A program made the translations under genes and the position numbers. The notes below the pieces were generated by a model. It made no database searches. It had not been told where the DNA came from and worked only from the letters and a program-made list of their open reading frames with translations. This document shows positions 3,427-31,594 of a stretch of DNA of 31,594 bases, piece after piece. Location of the stretch: IMG/VR virus record IMGVR_UViG_3300034096_000634, positions 1-31,594 of that record. The stretch is one strand, 5' to 3'. The stretch's first letter is position 1. Each line of letters starts with the position of its first letter. The DNA is from a virus.

Positions 3427-3945
3427 GTGATATTTATTAAAAAATCAAATTTAATTATTGATAATCAGCAAAATTTTATTGACTGCATTAAAGAGTCAAC
3501 TGGCAAATTGCAGCAAATATTTGGTACTAATGACTACACAAAGCTTTATAGGCAATATAATATATTCGGAGTTACTGCGACTAACATATTAATGTATTCA
3601 TTATTTAATGAGTTAAAAACTTTAGTTCGCGCTGAGATCGGGAACGACAGACCTCTCTGGATGCAGTCATGGGTGAACTACCAAGACTGCAATAGTCTTC
3701 TCCCGTGGCATGACCATAAGTGGGAATGGCACGGTTATATCTGTATTGAGCCGAAAAATACTGTTACTGTATTTGAAGATTGGGAGATACATAATAAAGT
3801 TGGACAAATATATTTTGGAGAAGGGCATAAGCCGCACCGTGTTGATGCCGTAGAACCTTTCGATGGTCACAGAATTACGATAGGGTATGATGTTACATCA
3901 GTTCAAAACAGGCAATCACCATATCTAGGGCTGATTCCTTTTTAA
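3427..3945 (+). CDS. Putative 2OG-Fe(II) oxygenase/cupin-like protein
   Basis: This encodes 172 residues from a GTG directly after the preceding stop; no better start is nearby. The core SWVNYQDCNSLLPWHDHKW, then HGYICIEPKNTVTVFE, KVGQIYFGEGHKPHRVDAVE and HRITIGYDV reads as a double-stranded beta-helix. Candidate iron ligands are H95 and H97 (WHDH), possibly H102, and the distal H137 (KPHRV); R149 could bind the cosubstrate. The WHxH in place of HxD is notable, but I recall the same layout in phage proteins annotated as putative 2OG-Fe(II) oxygenases. It lies between a conserved hypothetical and a clear hydroxylase. A non-oxygenase cupin is the main alternative. Confidence 0.7.
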   Translation: MIFIKKSNLIIDNQQNFIDCIKESTGKLQQIFGTNDYTKLYRQYNIFGVTATNILMYSLFNELKTLVRAEIGNDRPLWMQSWVNYQDCNSLLPWHDHKWEWHGYICIEPKNTVTVFEDWEIHNKVGQIYFGEGHKPHRVDAVEPFDGHRITIGYDVTSVQNRQSPYLGLIPF

Positions 3946-3955
3946 TAGGAGATTT

Positions 3956-4552
3956 ATGAAAAAATATAGTATAGATAATTTTATTGGCGTATTTGATGGA
4001 TTTTTTGAAAAATCCTACTGCAACGATTTGATTAAATATTTTAATATGCGACAGGCGTACTCCGAAAATATTAGCGATACGAAGCGCAGGGACCGCTCTT
4101 TGTCTTTTAATCACCAAAACGATATAGACAGAACTACTCGTTACAACATAGACCCACTTGAATCTCCAGCCTTACTGGAAGCTTTTCAAACTATTTTTTG
4201 GAAAGATTGTTACGAAAAATATCTTAACGAGTATTCTTATAGTAAACAAATGAGCCATTTGGCGATTTCTTCTATGAAGATACAAAAAACAATTCCCGGC
4301 GGCGGTTATCACCCATTTCATTTTGAGTCATTAGATTCATTAACTTCAAAAAGAGTGATGTTTGTAATATTATACCTTAATGATGTCAACTATGGCGGAG
4401 AGACCGAGTTCCTGTATCAGCAGAAAAGAGTGGAGCCTAAAACCGGTCGTCTGTTACTCTCTCCGGCTGCATATACCCATCCACATAGAGGAAACCCCCC
4501 GCTTGAAGGGGAGAAGTATATTTTGACAACATGGATTGAATTCGGGAATTAA
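3956..4552 (+). CDS. 2-oxoglutarate/Fe(II) oxygenase (prolyl 4-hydroxylase-like, HxE variant)
   Basis: This encodes 198 residues from an ATG with AGGAG (3947-3951) 4 nt upstream. Residues 105-198 match the catalytic half of prolyl 4-hydroxylase-like phage proteins: GGGYHPFHFES, then VILYLNDVNYGGETEFLYQQ, PKTGRLLLSPAAYTHPHRGN and GEKYILTTWIEF. H122 and E124 sit where HxD is expected, H175 is the distal ligand, and K187 is the likely 2OG-binding residue. The Glu in place of Asp is unusual in the wider superfamily but, as I recall, occurs in phage members. It is the last gene of the accessory block; 102 nt without a gene separate it from the lysis operon promoter and start. The substrate is unknown. 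Confidence 0.87.
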   Translation: MKKYSIDNFIGVFDGFFEKSYCNDLIKYFNMRQAYSENISDTKRRDRSLSFNHQNDIDRTTRYNIDPLESPALLEAFQTIFWKDCYEKYLNEYSYSKQMSHLAISSMKIQKTIPGGGYHPFHFESLDSLTSKRVMFVILYLNDVNYGGETEFLYQQKRVEPKTGRLLLSPAAYTHPHRGNPPLEGEKYILTTWIEFGN

Positions 4553-10958: not shown

Positions 10959-12317
10959 ATGGCTAATGTAATTAAATTAAAAAATTCAGGAACAGCAAAC
11001 AGCACCCCCACTTCACTTGAGGTGGGGGAGCTTGCTATTAACTATGCTGACGGTATTTTGTATTATAAGAATTCTAGTAATGCAATTTCTATATTAAGCT
11101 CTGCGTTATCTGCTCAAGGTACTAGCAGTATAGAAATTGCTACAACACCACCAGCATCGCCATCAGAGGGTGATCTGTGGTTTGAATCAGACACTGGAAA
11201 AACATTTATTTATTATGATAGTTTCTGGGTGGAAACTTCCGGCGCGGATGGCTCACAAGGATCAACTGGCTCCACTGGCCCCACAGGTCCAGAAGGTGGT
11301 ACAACAACCTTAACAACAAAGGGAGATATTTTAGCAAGAGGCACTTCAGGGTCTGTGCGCCTTCCTGTTGGAACTGATGGAAAGGTGTTGACTGCAAACT
11401 CATCCACTACAACTGGTTTAGAGTGGGTATCCCCAACAGTTTATGCAACAGTTGCAAATCTAAGTACATTATCAAACACCGTAACAGACATTTCAGGTAA
11501 TGCAAGTACTCTTTCAAATACTGTCACAACCTTGTCTGCCAATGTCAGTACTCTTTCAAATACAGTTACAACCCTGTCTGCCAATGTCAGTACTCTTTCA
11601 AATACAGTTGCTTTAAAAGCCAACATTGCATCCCCAGCGCTTACTGGGGTGCCAACAGCCCCAACTGCCGCTAACACAGTAAATAATACACAGATCGCAA
11701 CGACTGCTTATGTAAAAACGGTTATTGGAGATTTGATAAATTCAGCACCAGAGACTCTTGATACTCTTGGAGAGATAGCAAGCTCTCTTGCTAATAATAA
11801 CACACTCTCGTCAACGCTAACAACATCTATTGCGCTTAAAGCACCGCTAGCAGACCCTACTTTTACTGGAACGGTAACAATTCCTGCTGGTGCATCTATC
11901 TCTGGATTTGCAACACTTGCTGATCCTACCTTTACAGGAAATGTTGCGGGTATTACAAAAACAATGGTCGGTCTTGGAAGTGTTGATAACACAACAGACC
12001 TTGGTAAACCAATTTCAAATGCTACACAGACAGCATTGGATCTTAAAGCTCCTCTTGCAAATGCTACATTCACAGGGACAATTGTTCTTCCAGCGACAAC
12101 ATCAATTGCTAATGTTACATCAACCGAAATTGGGTATTTAGATGGGGTTACTTCTGCAATTCAAACACAGTTGGATAATAAACAGGCAATCATTGCCAAT
12201 GTTTCTGATACAGAAATCGGTTATCTTGACGGTGTAACAAGTGCAATTCAAACACAGTTGAATACAAAAGCTTCAACAGGAAAAGCCATAGCAATGGCAA
12301 TAGTATTCGGAGGATAA
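10959..12317 (+). CDS. Tail fibre protein 2 with collagen-like and coiled-coil repeats
   Basis: This encodes 452 residues with AGAGG before the ATG. The N-terminal anchor (IKLKNSGTANSTPTSLEVGE, LAINYADGILYYKN) parallels the preceding fibre. Residues 95-114 are a short collagen-like Gly-X-Y run (GADGSQGSTGSTGPTGPEGG). Then comes TTKGDILARG...VLTANSSTTTGLEW, a known fibre connector motif. Residues 169-217 contain 3.5 copies of a 14-residue unit (TLSNTVTTLSANVS) that should form a trimeric coiled coil. The rest follows phage fibre repeat style (LKAPLADPTFTGTVTIPAGA; VGLGSVDNTTDLGKPIS), with two 29-residue repeats around TEIGYLDGVTSAIQTQL, and ends in AMAIVFGG. It is complete and clearly a long trimeric fibre. 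The collagen-like stretch is a possible substrate for the prolyl-hydroxylase-like proteins encoded upstream, though its prolines sit in the X position. Confidence 0.88.
   Translation: MANVIKLKNSGTANSTPTSLEVGELAINYADGILYYKNSSNAISILSSALSAQGTSSIEIATTPPASPSEGDLWFESDTGKTFIYYDSFWVETSGADGSQGSTGSTGPTGPEGGTTTLTTKGDILARGTSGSVRLPVGTDGKVLTANSSTTTGLEWVSPTVYATVANLSTLSNTVTDISGNASTLSNTVTTLSANVSTLSNTVTTLSANVSTLSNTVALKANIASPALTGVPTAPTAANTVNNTQIATTAYVKTVIGDLINSAPETLDTLGEIASSLANNNTLSSTLTTSIALKAPLADPTFTGTVTIPAGASISGFATLADPTFTGNVAGITKTMVGLGSVDNTTDLGKPISNATQTALDLKAPLANATFTGTIVLPATTSIANVTSTEIGYLDGVTSAIQTQLDNKQAIIANVSDTEIGYLDGVTSAIQTQLNTKASTGKAIAMAIVFGG
11241..11300 (+). other. Collagen-like Gly-X-Y stretch in fibre 2
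   Basis: Twenty codons read as six Gly-X-Y triplets plus a final Gly-Gly, with prolines in X positions (GPT, GPE). Short bacterial or phage collagen-like segments of this kind trimerise fibres. Confidence 0.7.
11463..11609 (+). repeat. 42-bp tandem repeat in fibre 2
   Basis: About 3.5 copies start at 11463 (diverged), 11505, 11547 and 11589 (partial). The last copies are nearly identical and encode the 14-residue unit TLSNTVTTLSANVS. They would allow shaft length to change by whole units through slippage or recombination. Confidence 0.8.
12111..12275 (+). repeat. 87-bp repeat in fibre 2 C-terminus
   Basis: Two copies beginning at 12111 and 12198 encode 29-residue units around TEIGYLDGVTSAIQTQL. 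The DNA has diverged at third codon positions, so these are older than the 42-bp repeats. Confidence 0.65.
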
Positions 12318-12318
12318 A

Positions 12319-12996
12319 ATGTCAGCACCAAATATCGTAGGCGTAACAAACATCAAAGGGAAAACAGCAGTTCTTGCTGTTACAACTACGGCTACACCTA
12401 TCGTCAAAAACGAGGGTAGTAGCGCAGGCACAACAATTGTTGTTACCGCCAGCGGCTCATCTGCATATGTAGTTGGAGGCTCAAACAACGCAACTATTTC
12501 TGTTGTCCGTGGTGCAACTTACACAATTCGGGTAAGCGCAGTTGGACATCCTTTTTGGATTCAGACATCGACGGGTGCGTATAACGCAGCCAATATCGTA
12601 ACTTCTGGCATTACAAATAACGGAACCGAGCTTGGCTATATCACCTATCAGGTTCCTGCTGATGCGCCAGACACTCTCTACTATGTTTGCCAAAACCACT
12701 CTGCTATGGCTGGTTCAATCACGGTTACTGGTACCGCAAGCAACTCGGGCAAGGTATTTAAAGTTAACGCTCTTTATATCTCCAATGTTGACGGAACAAA
12801 TAATGCAGATGTCACTGTTGATATCTTCCGTTCATCAACCGCATATCGTATTGTGAACACTGTTGTTGTTCCAGCAGATGCGGTTTTAGATGTTATTTCA
12901 AAAGCGTTTTACCTTGAAGAAGGAGACTCTTTGCGACTCACAGCAAGTGCTAACTCTGACCTTGAAGCCGTGTGCAGTTACGAAGAAATTTCGTAA
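12319..12996 (+). CDS. Phage structural protein with inserted cupredoxin-like domain
   Basis: This encodes 225 residues. The two ends belong to one known aquatic-phage structural protein: N-terminal APNIVGVTNIKGKTAVLAVT and C-terminal SGKVFKVNALYISNVDGTNN, then YLEEGDSLRLTASANSDLEA and SYEEIS. Between them, at about residues 38-140, lies a separate beta domain: VRGATYTIRVSAVGHPFWIQ, then LGYITYQVPADAPDTLYYVC, then QNHSAMAGSITVTG. H77, C124, H127 and M130 fall in the order and context of type-1 copper ligands (His, then Cys-x2-His, then Met), as in plastocyanin-like proteins, although the His-to-Met spacing is shorter than in plastocyanin. Similar YYxCxxHxxM domains occur in cyanophage virion proteins. 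Copper binding is inferred. It lies 1 nt after fibre 2 and directly before the adhesins, so it is probably a tail-tip component. Confidence 0.78.
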   Translation: MSAPNIVGVTNIKGKTAVLAVTTTATPIVKNEGSSAGTTIVVTASGSSAYVVGGSNNATISVVRGATYTIRVSAVGHPFWIQTSTGAYNAANIVTSGITNNGTELGYITYQVPADAPDTLYYVCQNHSAMAGSITVTGTASNSGKVFKVNALYISNVDGTNNADVTVDIFRSSTAYRIVNTVVVPADAVLDVISKAFYLEEGDSLRLTASANSDLEAVCSYEEIS

Positions 12997-13887
12997 ATGG
13001 CACAGTTCCCATCTTCAAATTCGGCTTCTGATATATGGTCATTGATTGACCAAAGAGAAGCCCAGATGGGCAGCAATTTTCCTACAATGTACATACCTCT
13101 GTCATCAATTGAATATTTAGTGATAGCAGGCGGTGGCGGTGGAGGTTCAAGACATGGTGGAGGTGGTGGTGCTGGTGGATACCGAACTTCGGTATCTGGA
13201 GCTACTTCTGGCGGTGGAGCCGCAGCAGAGTCTGCCCTGAGTATTACCCCAGGCACTTCATATACGGTCACTGTTGGCGGTGGTGGAGCGGGTAATACAA
13301 ATGGCTCTGCTGGGTATGCAGGTGCGGCTGGGCAAAACTCTGTTCTTGCCTCAATAACTTCTACAGGCGGTGGTTTTGGCGGTGGAGATTATGGCAATGG
13401 CGGCTCTGGCGGCTCTGGAGGTGGAACTGGCTATTGTGCAAGCGGTGGTGCTGGTACGGCGAATCAGGGCTACGCAGGCGGTGGTGGTTGTTCTAATTAC
13501 AACGGTGGTGCAGGAGGTGGTGCTGGCGCAGTTGGCGGAAACCATGCAAATAGAACCGGAGGCGTAGGCGTATCATCGCCAATAACTGGCTCCGCCGTTA
13601 CTCGTGGTGGTGGTGGTGGTGGTGGCTCTTGGGATGCTGGTGGAGGGGCTGGTGGTGCAGGCGGAGGTGGAAACGCAAACGGTGGTGCTGCTACAGCAAA
13701 CACTGGTGGTGGAGGCGGAGGAGGCGGCGGTGCGGGTGCTGGTGGAAATGGCGCTTCAGGCTTTGTTGCTTTACGCTATCCAGACACCTTCGATGCCGCT
13801 GTATCAACAACAGGTTCCCCAACCATAACAACAACAGGTGGATACAGAATTTATACCTTCACTGGTTCTGGGAGCATAACTTTCTAA
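12997..13887 (+). CDS. Glycine-rich adhesin 1
   Basis: This encodes 296 residues and starts directly after the previous stop. The N-terminal anchor is MAQFPSSNSASDIWSLIDQR, then IEYLVIAGGGGGG. Residues 45-250 are polyglycine-rich tracts broken by short polar or aromatic motifs (YRTSVSG, YTVTVGGGGAG, SSPITGSAVTRGG), as in the polyglycine sandwich folds of phage adhesins and the Gly_rich tail families. The C-terminal cap is FVALRYPDTF, then GSPTITTTGGYRIYTFTGSG and SITF. It is the first of three paralogues; the variable Gly loops probably contact the host receptor. Two cysteines (YCASGG; GGGCSNY) are peculiar to this copy. Long minus-strand ORFs here come from GC-rich Gly codons and are shadows. 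Confidence 0.85.
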   Translation: MAQFPSSNSASDIWSLIDQREAQMGSNFPTMYIPLSSIEYLVIAGGGGGGSRHGGGGGAGGYRTSVSGATSGGGAAAESALSITPGTSYTVTVGGGGAGNTNGSAGYAGAAGQNSVLASITSTGGGFGGGDYGNGGSGGSGGGTGYCASGGAGTANQGYAGGGGCSNYNGGAGGGAGAVGGNHANRTGGVGVSSPITGSAVTRGGGGGGGSWDAGGGAGGAGGGGNANGGAATANTGGGGGGGGGAGAGGNGASGFVALRYPDTFDAAVSTTGSPTITTTGGYRIYTFTGSGSITF

Positions 13888-14741
13888 TGGCACAGTTTCC
13901 TTCTTCTTCATCCGCCTCTGGTCGCTGGACTTTAAAATTACAAAGACGAGCAAAGATGGGAAATAATTTTCCAGCGATGGCCCCGAGCTCTGTTGAGTAT
14001 CTTATTGTAGCGGGCGGCGGTGGTGGTTCTAGCGGAACAGCTGGTGGTGCGGGAGCAGGCGGTTTACTCGCTGGTAATACGGCAATTACTGCTGGAACAG
14101 CTTACACAATTACTGTTGGCGGTGGTGGAGCAGGGGCTGGTCCTACCGCCGCTGGATCAAACGGTCAAAATAGTGCTGGGTTTGGACAGACGGCAATTGG
14201 TGGTGGTAGAAGTGCAACATCAAACCCATCAACAAATGCTGGTTCTGGTGGTTCAGGTGGTGGTGGTGCAAGTTATGCGGGCTGGGGAAGCGGTGCTGCG
14301 GGCTCTGGAACAGCAGGGCAGGGAAATAATGGTGCAACCTCGTCATGGCAAGGCGGTGGCGGTGGTGGCGGTGCAGGGGCTGCTGGTTCTGGCGCAACTG
14401 GCGGAATAGGTGTGCAATCGTCAATAACAGGTACTGCGCTTTATTACGCTGGTGGTGGCGGAGGAATGGTAGACGGTGCTGGAGCCTCTGGCGGTTTAGG
14501 CGGAGGCGGTGCGGGCGCAGAGCATGGTGCTGTTGCTGGTACTGCAAACACTGGTGGCGGAGGAGGGGGAGGCTGGAGTTATTGCTGCAGTGTTGGAGGT
14601 ACTGGTGGTTCGGGTGTTGTGATTGTTCGTTACCCCGACACATTCCCTCTTGCAACAGCAACAACTGGTTCCCCTACAATAACAAACCCAACGGGTTATA
14701 GAGTTTATAGATTCACTGCTTCGGGGAGTATAACCTTCTAA
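13887..14741 (+). CDS. Glycine-rich adhesin 2
   Basis: This encodes 284 residues. ATG 13887 shares one base with the previous stop (TAATG); the frame is open upstream to 13629, but that part is an Arg/Trp-rich shadow of adhesin 1. The N-terminus MAQFPSSSSASGRWTLKLQR then GNNFPAMAPSSVEYLIVAGG matches the other two copies. The middle is polyglycine with SITGTALYYAGGGGG and a Cys pair (WSYCCSVGG), different in detail from adhesin 1. The cap is VVIVRYPDTFPLATATTGSP then TITNPTGYRVYRFTASGSIT. The conserved ends and divergent centre are what is expected of paralogues diversifying their receptor-contact loops. Coupling by overlap implies similar expression of all three. Confidence 0.85.
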   Translation: MAQFPSSSSASGRWTLKLQRRAKMGNNFPAMAPSSVEYLIVAGGGGGSSGTAGGAGAGGLLAGNTAITAGTAYTITVGGGGAGAGPTAAGSNGQNSAGFGQTAIGGGRSATSNPSTNAGSGGSGGGGASYAGWGSGAAGSGTAGQGNNGATSSWQGGGGGGGAGAAGSGATGGIGVQSSITGTALYYAGGGGGMVDGAGASGGLGGGGAGAEHGAVAGTANTGGGGGGGWSYCCSVGGTGGSGVVIVRYPDTFPLATATTGSPTITNPTGYRVYRFTASGSITF

Positions 14742-15667
14742 TGCCTGATTTTCCTTCCTCCTCCTCAGCCTCTGGAATCTGGACGCTTGATAAACATGTA
14801 AAAGCAAAGATGGGTGGTAATTTTCCTATAAGCTCTATTGCCGTTCAATATCTCGTTATTGCTGGCGGAGGTGGTGGTGGTTCTGGTGCTACCAGCGCAA
14901 ATAACGGAGGCGGTGGTGGTGCTGGTGGTTATCGCTCGTCTGTCACAGGTGAATCAACTGGTGGAGGGGGTACGCTAGAAAGCCCTCTGGACCTCTCACT
15001 TGGTGTTCAATATACGGTGACAGTGGGTGCTGGCGGTGCAGTAAATACATCTGGTGTCAATTCGGTTTTTTCAACAATTACCTCTACGGCTGGAGGCAAG
15101 GGTGGTGGGTTGAGCCCTGCTGTTGCACCCGCAACTGGAGGTTCAGGTGGTGGTGGTGGTCCTGCTGGGTCAGGAAGCAATTTACATTTAGGTGCGGCTG
15201 GAACTGCCAGTCAAGGTTATTCAGGCGGTAATGGCAATCCTGCCTCTCCCTATCGTGGAGGTGGAGGTGGAGGTGCTGGAGCAGCGGGTAATGCTGGCGT
15301 AACAAACGGAAATGGTGGTGCTGGTATTTCATCATCTATTACTGGAAGTGCCGTGACTCGTGCGGGTGGCGGTGCAGGCTCAGGTGATGATGGCGGTGGA
15401 ACAGGTGGTTCAGGTGGTGGTGGTAATGGAGGAGTTTTGAGCGGAGCGCAGGCTGTTGCTGGTACAGCAAACACTGGTGGCGGTGGTGGCGGTGGTGTTT
15501 CTCAAGGGGCGCAAATAGTCGGTGCCGCTGGTGGTTCTGGTGTAGTAATTCTTCGCTATCCCGACACTTTCTCACTCGCAACTGCAACAACTGGCTCACC
15601 AACCATAGCAACCACTGGCGGGTTTAGGATATATACTTTCACTGCATCAGGAAGTATCACTTTATAA
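14741..15667 (+). CDS. Glycine-rich adhesin 3
   Basis: This encodes 308 residues from an ATG overlapping the previous stop (TAATG). The N-terminus MPDFPSSSSASGIWTLDKHV then GGNFPISSIAVQYLVIAGGG and the cap VVILRYPDTFSLATATTGSP then TIATTGGFRIYTFTASGSIT match adhesins 1 and 2. The centre includes SSVTGESTGGGGTLESPLDL and SSITGSAVTRAGGGAGSGDD and lacks cysteines. It is the longest copy and the last of the array. A 64-nt gap with its own promoter follows. As for the others, a role in receptor binding at the tail tip is inferred from the family and position; none of the three looks truncated. Confidence 0.85.
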   Translation: MPDFPSSSSASGIWTLDKHVKAKMGGNFPISSIAVQYLVIAGGGGGGSGATSANNGGGGGAGGYRSSVTGESTGGGGTLESPLDLSLGVQYTVTVGAGGAVNTSGVNSVFSTITSTAGGKGGGLSPAVAPATGGSGGGGGPAGSGSNLHLGAAGTASQGYSGGNGNPASPYRGGGGGGAGAAGNAGVTNGNGGAGISSSITGSAVTRAGGGAGSGDDGGGTGGSGGGGNGGVLSGAQAVAGTANTGGGGGGGVSQGAQIVGAAGGSGVVILRYPDTFSLATATTGSPTIATTGGFRIYTFTASGSITL

Positions 15668-19272: not shown

Positions 19273-19306
19273 TAATTAAGTAAAAAAAATAATTTAGCAA
19301 AGGCAA

Positions 19307-19347
19307 TGCCCCTGTATATTCTGTGATAAACTTAATATACAGGGGCA
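19307..19347 (+). other. Perfect 14-bp stem-loop after the tail-tube gene
   Basis: TGCCCCTGTATATT at 19307-19320 pairs perfectly with 19334-19347 around a 13-nt loop. There is no T-run after it, so it is not a classical terminator on the + strand. It lies in the only 103-nt gap of the tail operon and may stabilise the abundant tube mRNA 3' end, act as a processing or attenuation site, or bind a protein as DNA. Confidence 0.75.
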
Positions 19348-19375
19348 AACCTGTTAACAAATAAAGGATGGTAAA

Positions 19376-19681
19376 GTGAGCGAAAAAAATAAAGACATTC
19401 TTGCCGGTACAGAAATTGTATTTGCAGATGGCAAAACACGAGTAATTAAGCCTTTAACAATTCGTAACCTTAGAAAGTTTATGAAAGTCGTAAAGGATCT
19501 CAAGAGCGAAGATACGCTTGATGACAAAGATATTGACATCATGGTGGAAGCAGCCGGTATCGCCTTGGCAGCAGTAGACCCAGAGTTGGGTAATGATAAA
19601 GAGAAGCTGGAAGATGTGCTTGACTTGCGTTCGTTTGGTGAACTTATGTCAGCCGCGATGGGTTCAGACCCTTCCTTCTAG
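19376..19681 (+). CDS. Tail assembly chaperone (gpG-like)
   Basis: This encodes 101 residues from GTG 19376, with AAGGATGG upstream. LAGTEIVFADGKTRVIKPLT is followed by IRNLRKFMKVVKDLKSEDTL then a helical rest (MVEAAGIALAAVDPELGNDK, EKLEDVLDLRSFGELMSAAM), ending GSDPSF. The KPLTIRNLRKFMKVV...... pattern, with a later D...L..L......... helix, is typical of tail assembly chaperones (gpG class) of siphophages. It should bind the tape measure during tail assembly. The ORF stops at 19681, but a second chaperone segment continues in the -1 frame without a start codon of its own, as in lambda G/GT. It lies between the tube gene and the tape-measure gene, as expected. Confidence 0.8.
   Translation: MSEKNKDILAGTEIVFADGKTRVIKPLTIRNLRKFMKVVKDLKSEDTLDDKDIDIMVEAAGIALAAVDPELGNDKEKLEDVLDLRSFGELMSAAMGSDPSF
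19669..19675 (+). other. Candidate -1 frameshift site
   Basis: C CCT TCC in the 0 frame re-pairs as CCC TTC after a -1 shift. The P site re-pairs well, but the A site has a second-position mismatch, so this is not a standard XXXYYYZ heptamer. G GGT TCA at 19660-19666 is an alternative. The two frames overlap only in 19642-19681, so any shift must occur there. Confidence 0.45.
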
Positions 19682-20010
19682 GCGAAGAGGGAGACAGTGC
19701 ATCCTCCCAGTCATGGGAGGATCTTCCTCTTCTAAAGTATGAATCCGAAGTTTTTGTAAAAACTGGTGCATGGATTAATTTTGATCTCCTTGAATCGAGT
19801 CTTACATTAAACGAATTGTTTCTTTTGTATAGAGCAGCTATGAATGAAACAAGCACTGCTATGAAAATCGCCGCAGCCTCTCAGGGTGCTGAAGTTGATT
19901 TCGATGATGACTGGTATGATCCCGCACCGATTGTTGCTGCGAATTCACACGATATTCGCCAAATGGGATTCGGGTTGGGCTATGAGCAAGTTCCTGTTTC
20001 CAATGATTAA
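19669..20010 (+). CDS. Tail assembly chaperone, frameshift extension (gpT-like)
   Basis: About 113 codons in the -1 frame relative to the gpG-like gene are open from 19642 to a TGA-free stop (TAA) at 20008-20010. The peptide (GEEGDSASSQSWEDLPLLKY, ESEVFVKTGAWINFDLLESS, TLNELFLLYRAAMNETSTAM, KIAAASQGAEVDFDDDWYDP) has the look of the downstream chaperone half: aromatic, acidic, with a helix ending in AA.QG.....D. No ATG occurs until 19840, and the TTG at 19816 would drop a third of the conserved-looking part. I therefore read it as the C-terminal part of a G-T fusion made by a -1 shift near 19670, starting upstream at 19376. The exact shift point is unproven. Confidence 0.7.
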   Translation, partial: PFLLGEEGDSASSQSWEDLPLLKYESEVFVKTGAWINFDLLESSLTLNELFLLYRAAMNETSTAMKIAAASQGAEVDFDDDWYDPAPIVAANSHDIRQMGFGLGYEQVPVSND

Positions 20011-20027
20011 TCTTAAAAATTATTTCT

Positions 20028-20056
20028 TTGCTTTAATTGCCCTAATATGCGATAAT
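20028..20056 (+). promoter_or_regulatory. Candidate promoter before the tape-measure gene
   Basis: TTGCTT at 20028-20033 (3/6) and GATAAT at 20051-20056 (5/6) are 17 nt apart in the 62-nt gap before ATG 20073. The start has no Shine-Dalgarno. The weak -35 makes this tentative. Confidence 0.35.
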
Positions 20057-20072
20057 TACTATTGGCTAAATT

Positions 20073-23000
20073 ATGTCTGACACAGGTGATCTCACAGCGC
20101 GATTAGGTATTGATGCATCTGTTACTGGTGCTGATTCCGTATCGGGTCTTGCTCAAAATGTAGCGTCCTTATCACAACAGCTTCTTCAGTTATCGCAAGG
20201 GGCCATCAGGCAGGCTAGTGTTCAGGATCAGTTGTCTAAGGCACTAGATCGCACCAAGTTGAGTACGAGCTTAGCACGGACTGCATTGCACGACTATCGT
20301 CAAAGCGCAGCCTTGGCTAATACGGTTATTAGACAAACAGAGAAGCACCTTATTGCTCTAGACGCTGCGCAAAGGAAAGTTGCTGCATCAGGCGGTATGA
20401 CCCCAGCGATTCAAAAGTCTTATGCCCAAACAAATACTCATTTGAATTCGATGATTGCTTCTTCTGGCAAACTGGAAAAAGTTATGAAAGGAAATGCCAT
20501 TGAAGCTTATGGTAACAAAATTTCTAAAGCCGGAATTGCTGCTCAAAGAAGTTCTTATTACATGGCGGCAGCAGTAACTGCCCCGATCTTGCAAGCATTC
20601 AGGACTGCATTTTTCAACTATACAAAACTTGAAAGAGAGCAAGTTAGATTGACAAAATTAATTTCTGACGGATTTGGAACTGGCGCAGAAGCAATAGTTC
20701 TGGCAAGAAAAGAAATGGAAAAAATGAATGCTCCATTGGATAAGATCACAAGGACATTCGGAGTTTCCAGAATACTTGTGCAGGGACTTGCAGGTGATTT
20801 TGCTGAACTTGGTGTATCGACAGCGTTTTTTACCAACCTTGACGGTCAAGTCAGTAACGCCATAACTGAGCTTGTGGATCTAACTGTAAAGCTTGAGAAA
20901 TTAGGTAACTTGGACATTGGTCAATCCCAGGCCTTCATTCAGTCGGTATATCAGAACATATTGAGAGTCCGTAGAGATTTGGCGACTCAGGGCGGGTATA
21001 CCCTTGACTTGACTGATGCCGATACTATGCAAAAGATCATTGCTGAATTAACAGGTCAGCTTGCAATTTTCAACTTGGTTGAAAACAAAACAACGCTGTC
21101 TTTGAAGGATATAGCAGATGCATTCCCTGAAGTGTCTGCTGCAGCGACAACTTTCGGTTTGTCAATGTCGGAAACAACAGCACTTCTAGCGCCGATGGTT
21201 GCTGCCGGATATCAAGTGGGAGCATCAGCGAACTCCATTAAAGTTTCTCTGCAGAGAATGGTCGCTATGACCAAGCAAAACACGGGTATAATTCAAGGCT
21301 TGAATCAAGCCCTTGGTGATGATTTCCAATATTCCGCTGGCGTAGGTATGGAAAATATTCAAATGCTCGTTGATGGTTTTAATTCTTTGTTGTCGATCAA
21401 AGGTGAGCAAGGAACTCTTGAGTTATTTGCAAGACTTTTCGGTGTCAGACAGGGACCCCGAATGGAAACCTCAATTAGGCAACTTGCTGCTTTCCAAACG
21501 GAGCTCGATAAAGTTGGAAGCGCAGAAAGAACTATCGCTAATGAGTTGGAAAATAAAGTTAACCAAAGACTCAAAGCATATGGCTATGAAGGTGTCTCTC
21601 TAAAGAAGATAGTTGACTTAAGTAATCTCCATAGAATGGCGACAAAAGAAGTTAATGGTGAGTACACACAGCAAGCAAAGCTGGTACAAGAAGGACAGAA
21701 GGATGCTGCCAAAGCATTGCAAGGAGTTTACTCTGATACTACAGATTTTATTGCAAAAGTTGGAACTGAAGCTGGAAAGATTTATTTCATGGAAGCCATG
21801 GGTGGAGCGAGCTTTGCTGGCGCACAAATGGAGCAAGAACTTAATGCAGCAATTGATACTGCCGCTATTCGCTTTGATAAATTAAGAGAGGCGCTCCTCG
21901 GAATAGGTCGGGCAATAATTCCAGTTGTCGATAGCGTTGTTAAAATTATTCTACCCCTATTCCAGAAAGTTGAAGATTTTCTAAAAGGATTAGGGCCCGG
22001 CACAAGAAAGGCGTTAGGATTTCTAGTTTTTGCTGCGCTGTTAATTCCTCAATTTAAAATAATTATGGCTACTATGAAAGTTCTGTTCGGAGGGGCAATA
22101 TCTGGTTTCGGCAAAATGATTTTTGGCGCAAACGGTTTGCGCTCATCGCTTATGGGCGTAAAAGCCGTAACAGTTTCATTACAAGATATTCTTACAAACC
22201 CTAAAATAACTCGGGGTTATAATAAGTTAACTCAATACACAGATGACACATTTTTATTGGAGCAAAAAAGGGATGCACCGGGTTATCGAAAAGGAATTCT
22301 AAATAGAAGAAAAATGGTCCCTGATGCCTCGGGTGTCAGTCTACCAGTTCGTGAATTACTTGAGAATTCTGGCATGGCTGATCCGTCTGGCAAGAAATCT
22401 GTTAAATCAATATTGGGCGCATCATCTAAGTTGGGGTTAAAAAATACTGAAGAGTTAATTGATTCTATGCTCAGAGATATGGGTGCCATCCCAGCGAAGA
22501 TTGCTGACGCTTCAACAAAAGCAACAGAGAGCACTGCTAAGTCAATTGCTAAATCTTTAAAGGGAACGATATTTCAAAACAATACTTTTATTGGAAACAA
22601 GTTTGGAGGCGGAACTGCTGGTCCTGGTGGTACTGGCACTGGACCGCGCACTCCAAAAACTCCAGCAACAGGTGGAACACCAATAGGCGCACCAATCACT
22701 CCACGATCAGGCGGAAGACCAGCGAGTGGGTTTGGAAGCCGCAAAGCTTTTGGTGGAATCAGTGATGTACTTATCGGTGAAGAGGAGAGATTGGCTGATT
22801 CTATGGCAACGCCAAGTCGCTATTTTACAGACCCAAGATTTGACCAAGCAAGTTCAAGAAAGATTTCAATCCCATCGGCTAAAGACATGGGTAAGGCTGC
22901 AACAATTAGTGCACCTATTGCGGCAGCTGTCAAGGAAGTAGCTGATGGAGCCAAAGCTGAATTGGAAGCACTTAGCAAAACAGTTACAAAAGAAGTTGAA

Positions 23001-26000
23001 AAAGCTAAAGAGGTTGTTAAAGAAGCTACTAAGCCAAAGGGTAAGTCACCCCGTGGTTCGCCAAAGAAAGTAAAAACAGCAGTTGAAAAAACTGTTGGTG
23101 AAGCTGTTAGTGCAGCAACTGCACCTCTAAAGGAGACAGTTGGGGCAGTAACAGAAGCATCGGCTGGAACAAGTGCTGCAGTAGAAAAAGCAACAAAGAA
23201 TGCCGTTAAAGCTGGGAAGGTTGTTTCAAAAGCAACAAGAGCCCCGGCTGGACAAGCTGCTCTCGTAAAGCTTTCCTATAAAGAAATTGCTGATTTCTTT
23301 GATAGCGCTGGTCAGCAAATCCCTGATGAATATGAATTTATCAAAACAACTCAAAGAGAAATGGAGCTCACCAAGAAGGCCAAATCTGATTTCTTTAAAA
23401 ATCTTACAAAGCAATTTGAAAAGAAATCACCAACACCTTTTGGATCCTTTAGAGGTAAAAATTTCTTTGCGTTTAACGCAGAAAGGTCTGCGTCCTCTAG
23501 ACCGTATCTGCCAGTAATAAGTCAACTTTTGTCGGATCAAACGGACCCGAGAGTTAATCCTAGAATGTCTCAAACAATGAATGTTAATGCTAAAAATAAA
23601 GCAAGAAATTATGTTGGCTCGATTCAAGAAAAACTGGCACTTGATCAAGCAAGCAGAAGGTCGGGTGTATCAAATAGAGAAAAAGCCGAAGCGGTAAAGC
23701 AAAGGAAAGCGGCGCAGGCCGCAAGGCTTGCAGCATATTCCTTTGAAGACGGACCCCCTGTTGGTGTTGAACAAATACAAGGGCCGGCTAATGCTAATGT
23801 AATTAAAAAATTACAAGATGATTTGGATGCTGCTAAAAAAGCATTCGATGCTCCAATTCAGCAGAAAGATTTGATTGGTTCATCAGTCGAAAAAGTTAGA
23901 GCAAAACAGAGGGGCGTGATAAGGAAATCTCAAGATGCTCTGGTTAAGGCACTAATGTTGAACACTGAAAAATTCATCCCAGCGACCCCGGCAACTTCTG
24001 CACTATTAAATGTGCAAAATCAAATGCCCTCGTCTCAGCTTCAAAACATGCCGTCTCAGAAAAAAGATTATTCAAATCTTCTTTCAAATGTGGTTAAAGA
24101 TATTGACGCAACAGGTCTTGATCCAAAAGCCAGGGTGCTGTATGAAACAAATTTGCAAAAACAAATTGACTCTTTAAGAACAACAAAAGATAAAGTGCTT
24201 AAGCAAGTAATTGAAGAAGAATTTGCGCAAATCAAAGCAGATAACCTTTCTAAAGCGCCGTTAGGTAGCAAAATTACTTCTGCTGGAGAAAAGAAGATTA
24301 GAGAGCAAGCTCTTCGGAATGTAGCTCAAAAAAGAGGTCTGGACAGTATTCAGGCATTCAACCCTCTCTCAGTTGATTACGATTCCGGTGCTGAAAAAGC
24401 ATTGTTGTCGAATAAAAAAGCTGTTGATGCTACAAAGAAAATGTTTAAAAACATGGGAGACAGTGGAAAGGTATTTGCTGGTCATCTTGACGAAATGGTT
24501 GCAGATGTTTCTCCTGCAAAAACGGCAGCCCGAACTAAAGCGCTTAACCAATTCAAAAAGATGCGGGACAAGCTACCAGCTGTCAGCGGCGGAATGGGTG
24601 CTGTCGGCAAGGAGATGCAATCACTTAGGGATATTGTAAATAAATCTATTGATGATTTCGTAAATCAGCTTCCAAAGTCGTTTGGTGACAATAAGAAAGC
24701 AATCATTCGACAAGTTGCTCAGGCTACTGTTGGAGCAACTCCTGGAGCAGGAGTTGGACCAGTACTTGCAACAAGTCTTGATTTGATGAATCAGGAAGTT
24801 GATAGCGCTACTGCTAAATCAATTAAATCTAGATTAGATAATACTATTAAAGATTTATTGATATCAATTAAACAAACCCCTCAACTAGGTAAAGGTAGCG
24901 CCAGCCCGGGCCAAATGGCGAAGAAAAGTTTGGGGAGGGTATTTGAAAAAGCCAAAGGTCTTGCTAAGAATGTAACGGCTAATCATACATTGCTTGTGCA
25001 ATCCCTGTCTGATATTTTGACTGACTCCCTGGCATCGGGTACATATGCTGTTGCAGAGGCTGAGAAGGGCGCTCAGGGCATATTTAAACGAGCAGCTGGT
25101 CTTGCAGGAACCCTTAAGCAAAATACATTAATTGAAATGGGCAATATTGTCCAAGATGTGAGGAGAGGGAAGGCAGTTAAGGCGCAACGCTCTGCGGCAG
25201 GAGTCGGACCAGCTCAAACTAGCCGACCCGCTGTTCGAAAGGCATCTCAGGCAGCAAGTAAGCTTGAAACAGAGGCAATACTAAATAAAGTAACAGGAGG
25301 GAAAGGAGCCGCACCTGCTGCACCTGCTGCTCCCGCTGCTCCCGCTGCTCCTGCCGCACCTGCTGCACCTGCCGCACCTGCCGCACCTGCTGCGCCCGCC
25401 GCACCTCCTGCGCCTCCTGCGCCTCCTGCGCCTCCTGCGCCCCCAGCGCCCCCTGCTCTTGCTGATGAGCAAATCACAAAAGCACTAGGCAAGGCGAAAG
25501 TTGCACAGATTGCTAAAATAGAAAGTCAGATTGCCGCAATGACCGCAGAGCAGCTTGCATCAGAAAGCGGCTTAAAAGTCCAAAAGGCTCAGAAAGAACT
25601 AAAGGCAAAATTAAATACACTCGTTAAAGCACAAACTGAAGTCGCCGCTGCCCAAGCTAATGCTGAAGAGCTAGGTCGTTCTACAACAACTAGATTAAAA
25701 GCAGCAAAAGAAAAACTTGTTGGAGCAACGAATAATGCAAAGACCGCTACCGATAAGCTCGCCAGAGCGGTCTCCGCTGCAGCGACTAGTGTTGCTGCAC
25801 CAACCTCTGCTCCGAAACCCGCACCCGCTCCTCGGCTTGGCCCTACTGCACCCGCTACACCTTCTGCCGTTACTGCTCCGAAGATAAATATAAAAGACCT
25901 GAAAGGTATTGTGCCAGACACCGACTCGGGTTCAAGTCGAATAGTCAAGGCGGTTAAAGAGACCGCTGTAAGTTTTGATAAATCACTCGCTAACTTCTTT

Positions 26001-29000: not shown

Positions 29001-31594
29001 GTTGAGGCAGCCGGTTTCGCACTTGTTGAAATGGTCAATGAGTTGAAACGGAGACTTGTTGCCCTCAAGGGAACTTTATGGGCGGAATTTAAGGCAATCT
29101 TTGCCGCAATGCCTGAAGCTGATTTCCAAAGAGTATTTGGCGGAGCATTTGCAGATCTAGAGGATATTAAAGCAAAGATGACTGGGTTATTCGCTGAGAT
29201 AGTAAGTATCGCAGCAGAGATCAACACAATCGAAATAAGCAGGGAGCAGGCGGACAGTGGAGGTGGAGGTGAAGGTGCGGCTAAAGGCTCTACTGACGGA
29301 ATTGCACCTGGAGAGTCGATGGGCAATAGGGATCCAAAATATGGAGAGCACCTAGTAAGAAGACCTCTCATCCCTAAGGTAGCTATTGAGGTTGGTGACG
29401 AAAAGAGTGGCGGTGGTTTCTTTAGCTCGATAGCGGATGGTGCAAAAAATCTTGCCGACATGCTTGGTCCTGTTAAAACAGCAATACTTGGAGCCGTTGG
29501 TGCAATAGCAGGGTTCTTCTCTCTTAAAATTTTGTTTGGAATAATACAAGCTGCCTTTGCAAAGATAATTTCGTTCATTGCAGTTTTGGCTACGGCAAGT
29601 GCGGCAGTAGCGCTAACAGTGGGTGTGATCATAGGAGTGCTCATATATTTATACATTAAAGTGGAGGCCTTTAGGAATTTTGTAAACAATGTCTTTACAA
29701 AGGCATGGGAAATTCTTGGCACTGTAGTCACGGGTGTGTTTGATGGAGTAATGCTGGCAATCAATGGAGTTTGGGATTCCATAAAGGCAATCGGTCAGAA
29801 CATATTGGGCTTCATGAAAGAAATATGGGGTGCCATTGGCGGAATTGTTAAAGATACTTTCAACAAGATTGTTTCATTCTTTGTCGATGGTTACAATGCT
29901 CTTAAAGACAATTTTGCAAACCTAGCATCTAGCATTTGGAATTCCTTCAGCGGAGTAGCAGGTGCTGTGTTTGATGGGATTAAGGAAATACTGTCCCCCA
30001 TAATGGAGCTTGTAGGAAAAATTGCTGCAGGAATCGGCATCGCTATTGGCATTATTGTTGGCGCTGTTATGGCTGTCGTGGGCGGAGTAGTCGTCGTAAT
30101 TGTAAACATCTTTAACGCAATCAAGGGTCCATTATTCTCAGTAATAGGTTTCGTCATGGATGTCATTGCGAAAATATACGATATCGTAGGCCCAGTTCTT
30201 GAGTTCGTAATTGGTATGGTTGCGAAAGTCATATCTGCTCCGTTTAAAATAATAAATGGAGTGATTGATTTGGTTATCAGCATGGTATCTGGGATATCGG
30301 GAGCGATTATCCCAATTGGTTCAATAATTCTTAATGTCCTTTTAGCGCCGTTTAAATTGTTGATAGATGTATTCAAAAAAATTGCTGAAAATCCAATTGT
30401 CAGCTGGGTTGCTAGATTCGTCGCCATGCTTGCTCTTGTAGCTGCAGTTATTGCAACATGGGGTGTCAAGCTAGCTCTTGAAGCCGTTTGGGGCATGATT
30501 AAGAAAGTCGGGGACATACTGTCCAGTCTGGCAAAGATTGTAATTGATGTGGTTGGCACTGCGTTTAGTTTTGTTAAAGACTTGGTTCTTGGCGTGTGGG
30601 ATGCAATCTATAGTAAAGTTACAGGGTTTATCGATTGGTGGCATGAGAATATCGGATCCCTCTGGTTAATATTTGTTGCGGTATTCGCAATCTTGTACGA
30701 AGCGGCAAGATGGTTCTTTAGTTGGATGAAAGACACATTCGGTCCAATACTTGCAAAAGTATGGGATGGTTTCAAGGATGCTGTTGGTGTTGTGTGGGAT
30801 CTTTTGAAGCAAGTTGGTTCTTGGATTGGATCGGCATTCAGTGCGGCTTGGGATGTGTTAAAGAAAGCAGCTTCATTGTTCTGGGACTATCTGGGCGGGG
30901 CTATTGGTTTTGCTTGGGGCATCATGAAGACAGTTGCTTCATGGATCGGCACAGCATTTGGAGCCGCTTGGGATTTCTTAAAGAAAGCAGCTTCACTGTA
31001 CTGGGATTACCTAAGTTTCATCATTCCGTTTGCATGGGGTGTTTTGAAAAAAGTTGCTGGCTGGATTCAGACCGCATTTGTTTTTGCATGGAATGTCCTT
31101 AAGACTGCCATTAGTTTTGTGTGGGATGTAATTAAGGAAGGCGTAAATGCTGTACTTCCAACGCTCACTATTTTAGCTAATTTTATCGGAACAGTACTAG
31201 GGGCGGCTTGGGATATTTTGAGGCAGGGTATTAGTTTTGTTTGGGATGCAATTACAGTTGGCTTTGATTTGGTATCCCCAACTCTTGGCTTCTTTGCTGA
31301 CATTGTGGGCAATGTCCTTGGGGGCGCATGGGGATTTTTGAAAGAGGGTGTGAATTTTGTCTGGGATGCAATCACAGCGGGTTGGAGCTTTATATCCCCA
31401 ACTCTCGGCTTCTTTGCTGACATTGTGGGCAATGTGCTTGGTGGTGCTTGGAATGTTCTAAAAGAAGGTATTGGCTTTGTTTGGGATGCAATCAAAACGG
31501 GCTGGAACTTTGTGTCTCCAATACTCGGTTTCTTTGCTGATGCCATAGGAAAAGTTATTAGAGGTGCTATTGAGAAAGTTATAGATATCTGGAA
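20073..31594 (+). CDS. Tape-measure protein (3' partial, at least 3,840 codons)
   Basis: One frame is open from ATG 20073 to the window edge with no stop; I followed it codon by codon over most of its length. Residues 175-645 form the phage minor-tail/TMP core; a helix around 360-395 (LSMSETTALLAPMVAAGYQV) is the classic TMP motif. Residues 850-1750 are rich in Ala, Lys and Thr, mostly helical or disordered. A Pro-Ala hinge spans 1746-1795. Residues 2708-2853 form a long coiled coil (DQKDKALEAFDAQIDAIGQL, EQREKAIDVINKEKDLLVKQ). Hydrophobic helices lie near 3163-3196 (VALTVGVIIGVLIYLYI) and 3317-3347 (IGIAIGIIVGAVMAVVGGVV), as needed for membrane entry. From 3583 come 40-residue Trp repeats. 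The protein sets tail length and probably forms a channel at DNA entry. No lytic domain is visible in the part seen. Confidence 0.9.
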   Translation, partial: MSDTGDLTARLGIDASVTGADSVSGLAQNVASLSQQLLQLSQGAIRQASVQDQLSKALDRTKLSTSLARTALHDYRQSAALANTVIRQTEKHLIALDAAQRKVAASGGMTPAIQKSYAQTNTHLNSMIASSGKLEKVMKGNAIEAYGNKISKAGIAAQRSSYYMAAAVTAPILQAFRTAFFNYTKLEREQVRLTKLISDGFGTGAEAIVLARKEMEKMNAPLDKITRTFGVSRILVQGLAGDFAELGVSTAFFTNLDGQVSNAITELVDLTVKLEKLGNLDIGQSQAFIQSVYQNILRVRRDLATQGGYTLDLTDADTMQKIIAELTGQLAIFNLVENKTTLSLKDIADAFPEVSAAATTFGLSMSETTALLAPMVAAGYQVGASANSIKVSLQRMVAMTKQNTGIIQGLNQALGDDFQYSAGVGMENIQMLVDGFNSLLSIKGEQGTLELFARLFGVRQGPRMETSIRQLAAFQTELDKVGSAERTIANELENKVNQRLKAYGYEGVSLKKIVDLSNLHRMATKEVNGEYTQQAKLVQEGQKDAAKALQGVYSDTTDFIAKVGTEAGKIYFMEAMGGASFAGAQMEQELNAAIDTAAIRFDKLREALLGIGRAIIPVVDSVVKIILPLFQKVEDFLKGLGPGTRKALGFLVFAALLIPQFKIIMATMKVLFGGAISGFGKMIFGANGLRSSLMGVKAVTVSLQDILTNPKITRGYNKLTQYTDDTFLLEQKRDAPGYRKGILNRRKMVPDASGVSLPVRELLENSGMADPSGKKSVKSILGASSKLGLKNTEELIDSMLRDMGAIPAKIADASTKATESTAKSIAKSLKGTIFQNNTFIGNKFGGGTAGPGGTGTGPRTPKTPATGGTPIGAPITPRSGGRPASGFGSRKAFGGISDVLIGEEERLADSMATPSRYFTDPRFDQASSRKISIPSAKDMGKAATISAPIAAAVKEVADGAKAELEALSKTVTKEVEKAKEVVKEATKPKGKSPRGSPKKVKTAVEKTVGEAVSAATAPLKETVGAVTEASAGTSAAVEKATKNAVKAGKVVSKATRAPAGQAALVKLSYKEIADFFDSAGQQIPDEYEFIKTTQREMELTKKAKSDFFKNLTKQFEKKSPTPFGSFRGKNFFAFNAERSASSRPYLPVISQLLSDQTDPRVNPRMSQTMNVNAKNKARNYVGSIQEKLALDQASRRSGVSNREKAEAVKQRKAAQAARLAAYSFEDGPPVGVEQIQGPANANVIKKLQDDLDAAKKAFDAPIQQKDLIGSSVEKVRAKQRGVIRKSQDALVKALMLNTEKFIPATPATSALLNVQNQMPSSQLQNMPSQKKDYSNLLSNVVKDIDATGLDPKARVLYETNLQKQIDSLRTTKDKVLKQVIEEEFAQIKADNLSKAPLGSKITSAGEKKIREQALRNVAQKRGLDSIQAFNPLSVDYDSGAEKALLSNKKAVDATKKMFKNMGDSGKVFAGHLDEMVADVSPAKTAARTKALNQFKKMRDKLPAVSGGMGAVGKEMQSLRDIVNKSIDDFVNQLPKSFGDNKKAIIRQVAQATVGATPGAGVGPVLATSLDLMNQEVDSATAKSIKSRLDNTIKDLLISIKQTPQLGKGSASPGQMAKKSLGRVFEKAKGLAKNVTANHTLLVQSLSDILTDSLASGTYAVAEAEKGAQGIFKRAAGLAGTLKQNTLIEMGNIVQDVRRGKAVKAQRSAAGVGPAQTSRPAVRKASQAASKLETEAILNKVTGGKGAAPAAPAAPAAPAAPAAPAAPAAPAAPAAPAAPPAPPAPPAPPAPPAPPALADEQITKALGKAKVAQIAKIESQIAAMTAEQLASESGLKVQKAQKELKAKLNTLVKAQTEVAAAQANAEELGRSTTTRLKAAKEKLVGATNNAKTATDKLARAVSAAATSVAAPTSAPKPAPAPRLGPTAPATPSAVTAPKINIKDLKGIVPDTDSGSSRIVKAVKETAVSFDKSLANFFKGPNFFQGPNIFQGKLITADKLKFNITDRAKDASRLAKARGDLIDPDDPRAVAARQSMARRNFAKLKGRIETRTGKSLTDDQLASLGRKTGYTLPKGLVSKPKAPVFPTPTGAAIPKAPFFPTPSGAPIDKITKSLGTLQAKVSSVSNAITSKLTGAMSSAFKGASDAAAGLGSAYARAGGGFIASHLKLASSGLSVLAEGYRISSTAASTFTKMSLAASRAADKIGFSGKLTSSVIKDLGFAFGKVGSVLASTTNAEFKTFLSTLQRSKVTKAWTFMLTAGMITFVKSLKSAIMYLNIFGNTRARVEAMRAAIAALPAGVSRFRKSLVGLAAFTQIGAALKAGFGGILKTIFSVLAIAIKLNAAMLLFAPIVIVIGAIFFQLKRGVTDNSKAIAILKEGVILIKGAFYALANPIMDIINAYGGFTKATDQSGKTAGVIYTLARAFRAVAKAFNDFARGTGASFMKNTLGPVVIRLVNRFILLGRAIKGAFSGSASASNNFKAFLLSLLYEVLAFTSKILGYMETLLPHLGGVIGAIIGGVAKATIKMLEYLGGYAQEIAILFGSLIAGIGIALLPFTVGASAKIVAVGGALVTVGLAGEVIGKKLAKSSGDIDKWASGVGQSIANGLGSVAGSVNNKVKEGMDNIDKSYAKKIGRGINKALADGTGDPDGIKKAIDESLKKNAPAATAGGEALGSAIAKGMKKKLLEVKEDFTGRFFSRADAGVDRYIDTLKRGLDDQKDKALEAFDAQIDAIGQLADAEERLTAKIEYEEKRREMIRTKALDRENYLRERKVASYEGRTEDVRSLDLSFQKTERDSNKELKDFDLERVKTQQSEQREKAIDVINKEKDLLVKQYEQMFRDFDKQIEDIKTVGFSTEDEFKTLLSRLGVASQGFSDEIASTFDTAMNSLPMSINEVSDRSIGMFSTSMDKLVDEAKSKFGAANGTANATSILGAAYMLATGMPDAFKTAFNDGIIAQYVTPWSSKVTASIAGIIPRDLWVEAAGFALVEMVNELKRRLVALKGTLWAEFKAIFAAMPEADFQRVFGGAFADLEDIKAKMTGLFAEIVSIAAEINTIEISREQADSGGGGEGAAKGSTDGIAPGESMGNRDPKYGEHLVRRPLIPKVAIEVGDEKSGGGFFSSIADGAKNLADMLGPVKTAILGAVGAIAGFFSLKILFGIIQAAFAKIISFIAVLATASAAVALTVGVIIGVLIYLYIKVEAFRNFVNNVFTKAWEILGTVVTGVFDGVMLAINGVWDSIKAIGQNILGFMKEIWGAIGGIVKDTFNKIVSFFVDGYNALKDNFANLASSIWNSFSGVAGAVFDGIKEILSPIMELVGKIAAGIGIAIGIIVGAVMAVVGGVVVVIVNIFNAIKGPLFSVIGFVMDVIAKIYDIVGPVLEFVIGMVAKVISAPFKIINGVIDLVISMVSGISGAIIPIGSIILNVLLAPFKLLIDVFKKIAENPIVSWVARFVAMLALVAAVIATWGVKLALEAVWGMIKKVGDILSSLAKIVIDVVGTAFSFVKDLVLGVWDAIYSKVTGFIDWWHENIGSLWLIFVAVFAILYEAARWFFSWMKDTFGPILAKVWDGFKDAVGVVWDLLKQVGSWIGSAFSAAWDVLKKAASLFWDYLGGAIGFAWGIMKTVASWIGTAFGAAWDFLKKAASLYWDYLSFIIPFAWGVLKKVAGWIQTAFVFAWNVLKTAISFVWDVIKEGVNAVLPTLTILANFIGTVLGAAWDILRQGISFVWDAITVGFDLVSPTLGFFADIVGNVLGGAWGFLKEGVNFVWDAITAGWSFISPTLGFFADIVGNVLGGAWNVLKEGIGFVWDAIKTGWNFVSPILGFFADAIGKVIRGAIEKVIDIW
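25308..25457 (+). repeat. Pro-Ala hinge (PAA)n/(PPA)n in the tape measure
   Basis: Fifty codons of Ala and Pro are first mostly Pro-Ala-Ala, then Pro-Pro-Ala. The DNA is a 9-nt simple repeat with synonymous drift, much richer in GC than its surroundings. It should form a stiff extended rod within the tape measure and could change length by slippage. Confidence 0.8.
30819..31594 (+). repeat. 120-bp/40-residue tandem Trp repeats in the tape measure
   Basis: Units start at 30819, 30939, 31059, 31179, 31299, 31419 and 31539, the last cut by the window. The first is SWIGSAFSAAWDVLKKAASL then FWDYLGGAIGFAWGIMKTVA. Trp falls at unit positions 2, 11, 22 and 33 in the first two units, giving an 11-residue-like rhythm. 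The units at 31299 and 31419 are close to identical in DNA (shared run around CTGACATTGTGGGCAATGT), implying recent duplication. Confidence 0.85.

Follow-up and report, generated by a model that had tools for sequence, protein, structure and literature searches.

A predicted cupredoxin domain with a candidate type-1 copper site, inserted in a small phage protein and recurring in tail proteins of aquatic phages

The window that we analyzed covers an entire virus record, 31,594 bases in length. We focused on an open reading frame that encodes a protein of 225 amino acids (Table 1); the coordinates given for it in a first-pass annotation were correct on checking. The gene lies directly between a tail fiber gene and a gene for a glycine-rich adhesin-like protein, and this gene order suggests that the protein belongs to the tail region of the virion. 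The glycine-rich gene is the first of three in tandem (the others are at about 13884-14741 and at 14741-15667). Their DNA is 64-73% alike, and they are probably a duplicated adhesin set.

Table 1. Features of the 225-amino-acid protein and its surroundings in the window.
Feature	Position	Strand	Evidence
Tail fiber gene, 452 aa, directly upstream	10959..12317	+	phrog_454, phrog_7032, and others
225-aa protein, small tail-region carrier with inserted cupredoxin domain (predicted)	12319..12996	+	ORF and homologue alignment
Carrier N-terminal part, residues 1-37	12319..12429	+	Residues 1-34 alignable to insert-free homologues
Inserted cupredoxin domain (predicted), residues 38-140	12430..12738	+	Fold, sequence profile, conservation
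H77 codon, first predicted copper ligand, motif GHPFWI; invariant P78 next	12547..12549	+	Profile alignment, conservation
Y122 codon, invariant aromatic two before the ligand Cys	12682..12684	+	Conservation
C124 codon, predicted copper ligand	12688..12690	+	Profile alignment, conservation
H127 codon, predicted copper ligand	12697..12699	+	Profile alignment, conservation
M130 codon, predicted axial ligand, spacing C-x2-H-x2-M	12706..12708	+	Profile alignment, conservation
Carrier C-terminal part, residues 141-225	12739..12993	+	94-95% identity to insert-free L029/L027
Glycine-rich adhesin-like protein, 296 aa, directly downstream, first of three alike	12997..13887	+	phrog_2295
Overlap, 100% identical, with L032-L036; their next genes include that for a 1449-aa tail protein with a second copy of the domain	30434..31594		

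A protein search of IMG/VR returned two kinds of homologue, one of 225 amino acids with an insert versus one of 117 amino acids that lacks it. The shorter proteins (for example, those at loci L027 and L029) match the window protein at residues 1-34 and 143-225, and the whole of residues 38-140 is absent from them. The carrier alone, residues 1-37 plus 141-225, comprises approximately 117 amino acids, and the insert 103. Among the related ORFs at the loci examined, 29 have the insert (a count that takes in the window, a duplicate of the window record, and overlapping contigs) and 56 do not, and the junction is the same. Because a MAFFT alignment of the DNA misplaced residues 16-37 of the insert-free genes, we placed the junction from the protein alignment. 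The first-pass annotation had proposed a separate domain within a two-part protein, and the existence of homologues with and without the insert bears this out. It had also read the two ends as one known small structural protein. The ends do form one carrier, but "known structural" was an overstatement: the annotation of the family consists of a weak match to phrog_1276 and the name "putative lectin" in one record. Insert-free relatives are encoded by Pelagibacter phage HTVC033P, Synechococcus phages Bellamy and S-SKS1, and phage DSL-LC04. In HTVC033P and Bellamy, at most a few genes separate it from an annotated fiber gene.

The structural model of the insert was that of a cupredoxin (pLDDT 97.2; pTM 0.88), and a model of the full-length protein gave the same fold. 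Residues 38-140 fold independently in the model, with the first strand formed by residues 38-45 and the last by residues 131-139. The best 50 matches listed in a fold search of the PDB were all copper proteins with the cupredoxin fold. Rusticyanin came first (TMq 0.63-0.69), followed in order by AcoP, plastocyanin, nitrite reductase, amicyanin, pseudoazurin, CuA domains, and laccases. Fold matches in BFVD agreed with a cupredoxin and extended to beta-sandwich proteins of giant viruses. Two of these, A0A481Z6J5 and A0A481YVH3, annotated as "Beta-sandwich proteins" of Pithovirus LCPAC302 and Marseillevirus LCMAC201, matched with TMq of 0.81-0.83.

Sequence comparisons gave the same answer when several relatives were combined. 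A phmmer search of the PDB with the single window sequence returned only noise, so a profile of 11 relatives was needed. This profile found rusticyanin (E 0.0012), auracyanin, amicyanin, plastocyanin, azurin, nitrite reductase, and laccase. A larger and more phage-weighted profile was less sensitive, finding one nitrite reductase. A Pfam search with the window protein gave no cupredoxin match, only a chance match to PSMbeta. Among 63 members of the family, six matched Pfam Copper-bind (PF00127) at E ≤ 0.1, and a copy in a fiber of phage P-SSM2 scored 23.3 bits against a curated cut-off of 21.2. We conclude that the insert is almost certainly a cupredoxin domain. A plastocyanin-like domain had been proposed for residues 38-140; the predicted structure is indeed a cupredoxin whose best relatives in the PDB are type-1 copper proteins.

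In the alignments of the 11-relative profile with rusticyanin, the phage GHPF falls on GHSF, and the subsequent C, H, and M each fall on the same residue of rusticyanin, whose known copper ligands are His85, Cys138, His143, and Met148. The type-1 order that had been noted for H77, C124, H127, and M130 is present as H...C-x2-H-x2-M, and the four residues align to these ligands. Conservation of the Cys, His, and Met in homologues had been set beforehand as a test, and there was no exception. All 155 distinct full-length domains have these four residues; raw counts are inflated because the retrieval patterns partly included the motifs, and hidden Markov models (HMMs) that were blind to the motifs or masked lessen this bias, with some remaining. 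Following the matches to an HMM that ended before the Cys, the pattern C-x2-H-x2-4-M was found in 156 of 162 cases, the other six being a contig end or weak partial matches. With an HMM that started after the first His, HP was found upstream in all 157 cases, and with the ligand columns masked, all 156 domains bore the ligands. The only invariant columns are H77, P78, Y122, C124, H127, and M130, across 42 clusters at <70% identity with members down to approximately 23%. Pairs of insert-bearing genes gave a dN/dS of 0.03-0.19 for the insert. Judging from these comparisons of sequences, the ligands are under selection. The conservation excludes a chance motif. A disulfide at C124 was also rejected: C124 is the only Cys in the domain, and C219 belongs to the carrier and is found in insert-free homologues as well.

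The insert thus has a complete predicted type-1 copper site, consisting of H77, C124, H127, and the axial M130. The fold match and the alignment support convergence of the ligand side chains on one point in the modeled domain, and the native protein probably contains copper. One feature would favor a different chemistry. Small blue copper proteins usually have Asn or Ser after the first His, and every member of the phage family has Pro. This invariant Pro could indicate a site for zinc, or for Cu(I) without type-1 character, or a Cys124 that serves as a reactive thiol. We consider such a site quite unlikely, because every close match, by structure or by profile, is to a copper site for electron transfer that has these four ligands. 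In addition, fungal laccases have HPF at the place of the first His, so the Pro after H77 is no fatal objection to copper; the laccase columns were weakly aligned in the search with the 11-relative profile. It is also conceivable that the insert is a metal-free structural beta barrel that merely inherited the cupredoxin fold, as phage tails have many beta-sandwich accessory domains and the carrier family is without an assigned function. This is highly improbable given that conservation is highest at the four ligands, across unrelated carriers, though the family diverges to approximately 23% identity.

The idea that the domain is unique to this protein was rejected, given the copies across unrelated phage tail carriers. 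Using tblastn with the 225-amino-acid protein, we found matches in 304 phage records, a few of which match the carrier part instead of the insert (for example, S-SKS1); 298 of the 304 are named as Synechococcus phages, Prochlorococcus phages, or cyanophages. The domain forms the C-terminus of gp9, the baseplate-fiber connector, in S-RIM8, ACG-2014a, and P-TIM68. It is present in two copies in the S74 fiber of P-SSM2 and in a collagen-like fiber (L109), and in one YHYH protein of an actinobacterial phage. It lies inside a LamG/PA14 tail protein of 1449 amino acids (L032), and it is also found in fusions with a glycine-rich adhesin (L061) and with a head-fiber-like protein (L065). Because the last part of the window and the first part of L032 are identical, the phage from which the window comes very probably has a second copy of the domain, approximately 2.4 kb past the window end. 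A strict pattern search of 84,980 prokaryote genomes found three loci only. One of these encodes a gp9-like protein and so is probably viral in origin. There are several unrelated carriers, and carriers exist both with and without the domain. On the evidence of these sequences, we regard the domain as a widespread movable module of tail-fiber-type proteins in aquatic phages. Gene order and the copies on gp9 suggest that it is carried in the virion.

There were two further observations on the genes around these copies. At ten of the 56 insert-free loci, a cupredoxin domain is on another nearby ORF, and at seven of these ten the ORF with the domain extends up to or close to where the gene for the small protein starts (for example, L061:6351-7583). 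In Actinomycetia phage DSL-LC01, the gene for a protein with cupredoxin and YHYH parts (L084:4122-7122) directly precedes a gene annotated as a tryptophan halogenase.

The model suggests how such a domain could be accommodated in different proteins. The C-H-M loop is at the far end of the last strand, and strands 38-45 and 131-139 abut the carrier. The domain begins with its first strand and ends with its last, which would place both termini opposite the ligand loop, so that it could be dropped into a loop of the carrier with the carrier undisturbed and the metal end outward. Based on the strand order and the known topology of cupredoxins, the metal end should be directed away from the carrier. 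We infer that this end is exposed, that it binds copper, and that it functions in contacts: bound copper would staple the exposed loops together so that they form a single rigid face. Either this face or the surface of the barrel may then interact weakly with the cell surface or neighboring tail parts. An accessory or adhesion role is argued from the company that the domain keeps, and we hold that the chances of this role are about even. Our preferred reading as a whole, which we judge to be equally balanced between right and wrong, is that a cupredoxin with a complete type-1 site serves as a copper-stapled accessory or adhesion module, like the Ig-like domains of phages. More tentatively, and doubtful at present, aquatic tailed phages, marine cyanophages above all, may display folded blue-copper domains at the tail surface and use virion copper in attachment or in triggering of the baseplate.

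Two other uses of the metal have to be weighed against a role in accessory contacts. The copper could act as a lure or cargo, displayed for docking on a metal-uptake surface of the host or returned to the next host. The intact ligand set at the outward pole of tail proteins and the strong bias to marine cyanophages would fit such a use, as would the precedent of iron in phage tail fibers and the Trojan-horse idea (PMC11705849). The presence of the domain in a head-fiber-like protein, too, argues against it. Type-1 sites also hold copper tightly, making them poor donors, and we know of no copper-uptake receptor in these hosts. In our judgment, a metal lure is unlikely. Alternatively, the domain could exchange electrons at the cell surface, for example as a sensor for the triggering of the baseplate or with a redox protein of the host as partner. 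A full predicted type-1 site with an axial Met and a conserved aromatic before the Cys, found on the fiber-baseplate connector gp9 in many cyanophages, is consistent with redox activity. Nonetheless, we rate electron exchange as very unlikely, since no redox partner domain or enzyme was seen fused to the domain, and copies in many unrelated places fit decoration better than a circuit.

Comparison with known systems helps to place the copper-stapled module that we favor. The phage domain shares with type-1 cupredoxins (PF00127) the fold and the four ligands in order, and with rusticyanin also GHxFxI before the first His and YYxCQ before the ligand loop. It differs from rusticyanin in having Pro after the first His and a shorter loop, C-x2-H-x2-M, which is comparable to the short ligand loop of amicyanin. 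Cupredoxins are textbook electron carriers, and rusticyanin is a free one in the periplasm, whereas the phage domain sits inside tail proteins and its copper is predicted. Cyanophages also carry a plastocyanin (petE), but this is a metabolic gene for host photosynthesis and not part of tail-region proteins. The Ig-like domains of tailed phages are beta-sandwich modules that are present in many unrelated virion proteins and are shuffled by recombination. The phage cupredoxin is likewise added to or inserted in unrelated proteins and shuffled, but it belongs to another fold family, and only it has an invariant set of metal ligands. The C-terminal approximately 105 residues of cyanophage gp9, the "baseplate wedge tail fiber connector" (phrog_677), are the same domain, with positions 301-409 of phrog_677 matching the insert at E 3e-21. 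In gp9 the domain is C-terminal on an N-terminus of the T4 gp9/10 type, whereas here it is inside a carrier of 117 amino acids. Metal in a phage tail fiber has been described for the iron-binding HxH motifs of T4 gp37 and Alteromonas phage R22Y (PMC11705849). Those motifs are short and lie in a trimeric fiber, in contrast to a folded domain with a predicted metal.

The history of the insertion can be read in part from the three segments of the gene. The insert of the window protein is 81-89% identical to the inserts of other insert-bearers, and its N-terminal part likewise resembles theirs. The C-terminal part is 71-78% identical to those of the other insert-bearers versus 94-95% to those of L029 and L027. 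DNA identity shows the same switch of resemblance around codon 150. In a tree of the C-terminal parts, which is rough and based on few columns, the insert label needs five changes, at least two of which are forced by well-supported branches. The single junction and the scattered C-terminal parts suggest that the domain was inserted once and that recombination, at its border or immediately beyond, came later. Repeated gain or loss of the insert is a possible alternative.

We found no cupredoxin or plastocyanin-like domain described in phage tails or virions in the open literature that we searched. The fold and the site are known; the same searches did not reveal their shuffled use in phage tail proteins, and the nearest published idea is iron held by HxH motifs of tail fibers (PMC11705849). 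The strictly conserved predicted type-1 site in hundreds of phages, including in gp9 of many cultured marine cyanophages, raises the question of whether there is copper in these virions and for what purpose. If there is, then phage particles would join the pool of copper ligands in the water, copper would affect phage attachment, and these virion parts would be a class of metalloproteins new to description. At the least, many records annotated as "hypothetical protein" or "baseplate connector" can be given a sharper annotation.

Several other features of the window were observed. From 19300 to 28700 the ORFs are mostly short and many are on the minus strand; recoding of this region was considered and rejected, as reading TAG as Q produced no long frames. 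A near-identity search with positions 1-25000 against a phage collection gave no match. There is a direct repeat at 31200-31540, with two overlapping copies of approximately 220 bases each that are 79% identical. The tail fiber upstream of the 225-amino-acid protein contains a collagen-like stretch, GSQGSTGSTGPTGPEGG, and the same run of genes includes two for 2OG-Fe(II) oxygenases (PF13640), at 2060-2674 and 3956-4552, with a weak match at 3427-3945. Oxygenases of this type are also encoded near the gene for the small protein in HTVC033P, Bellamy, and DSL-LC04, and a possible link to the fiber is hydroxylation of fiber residues.
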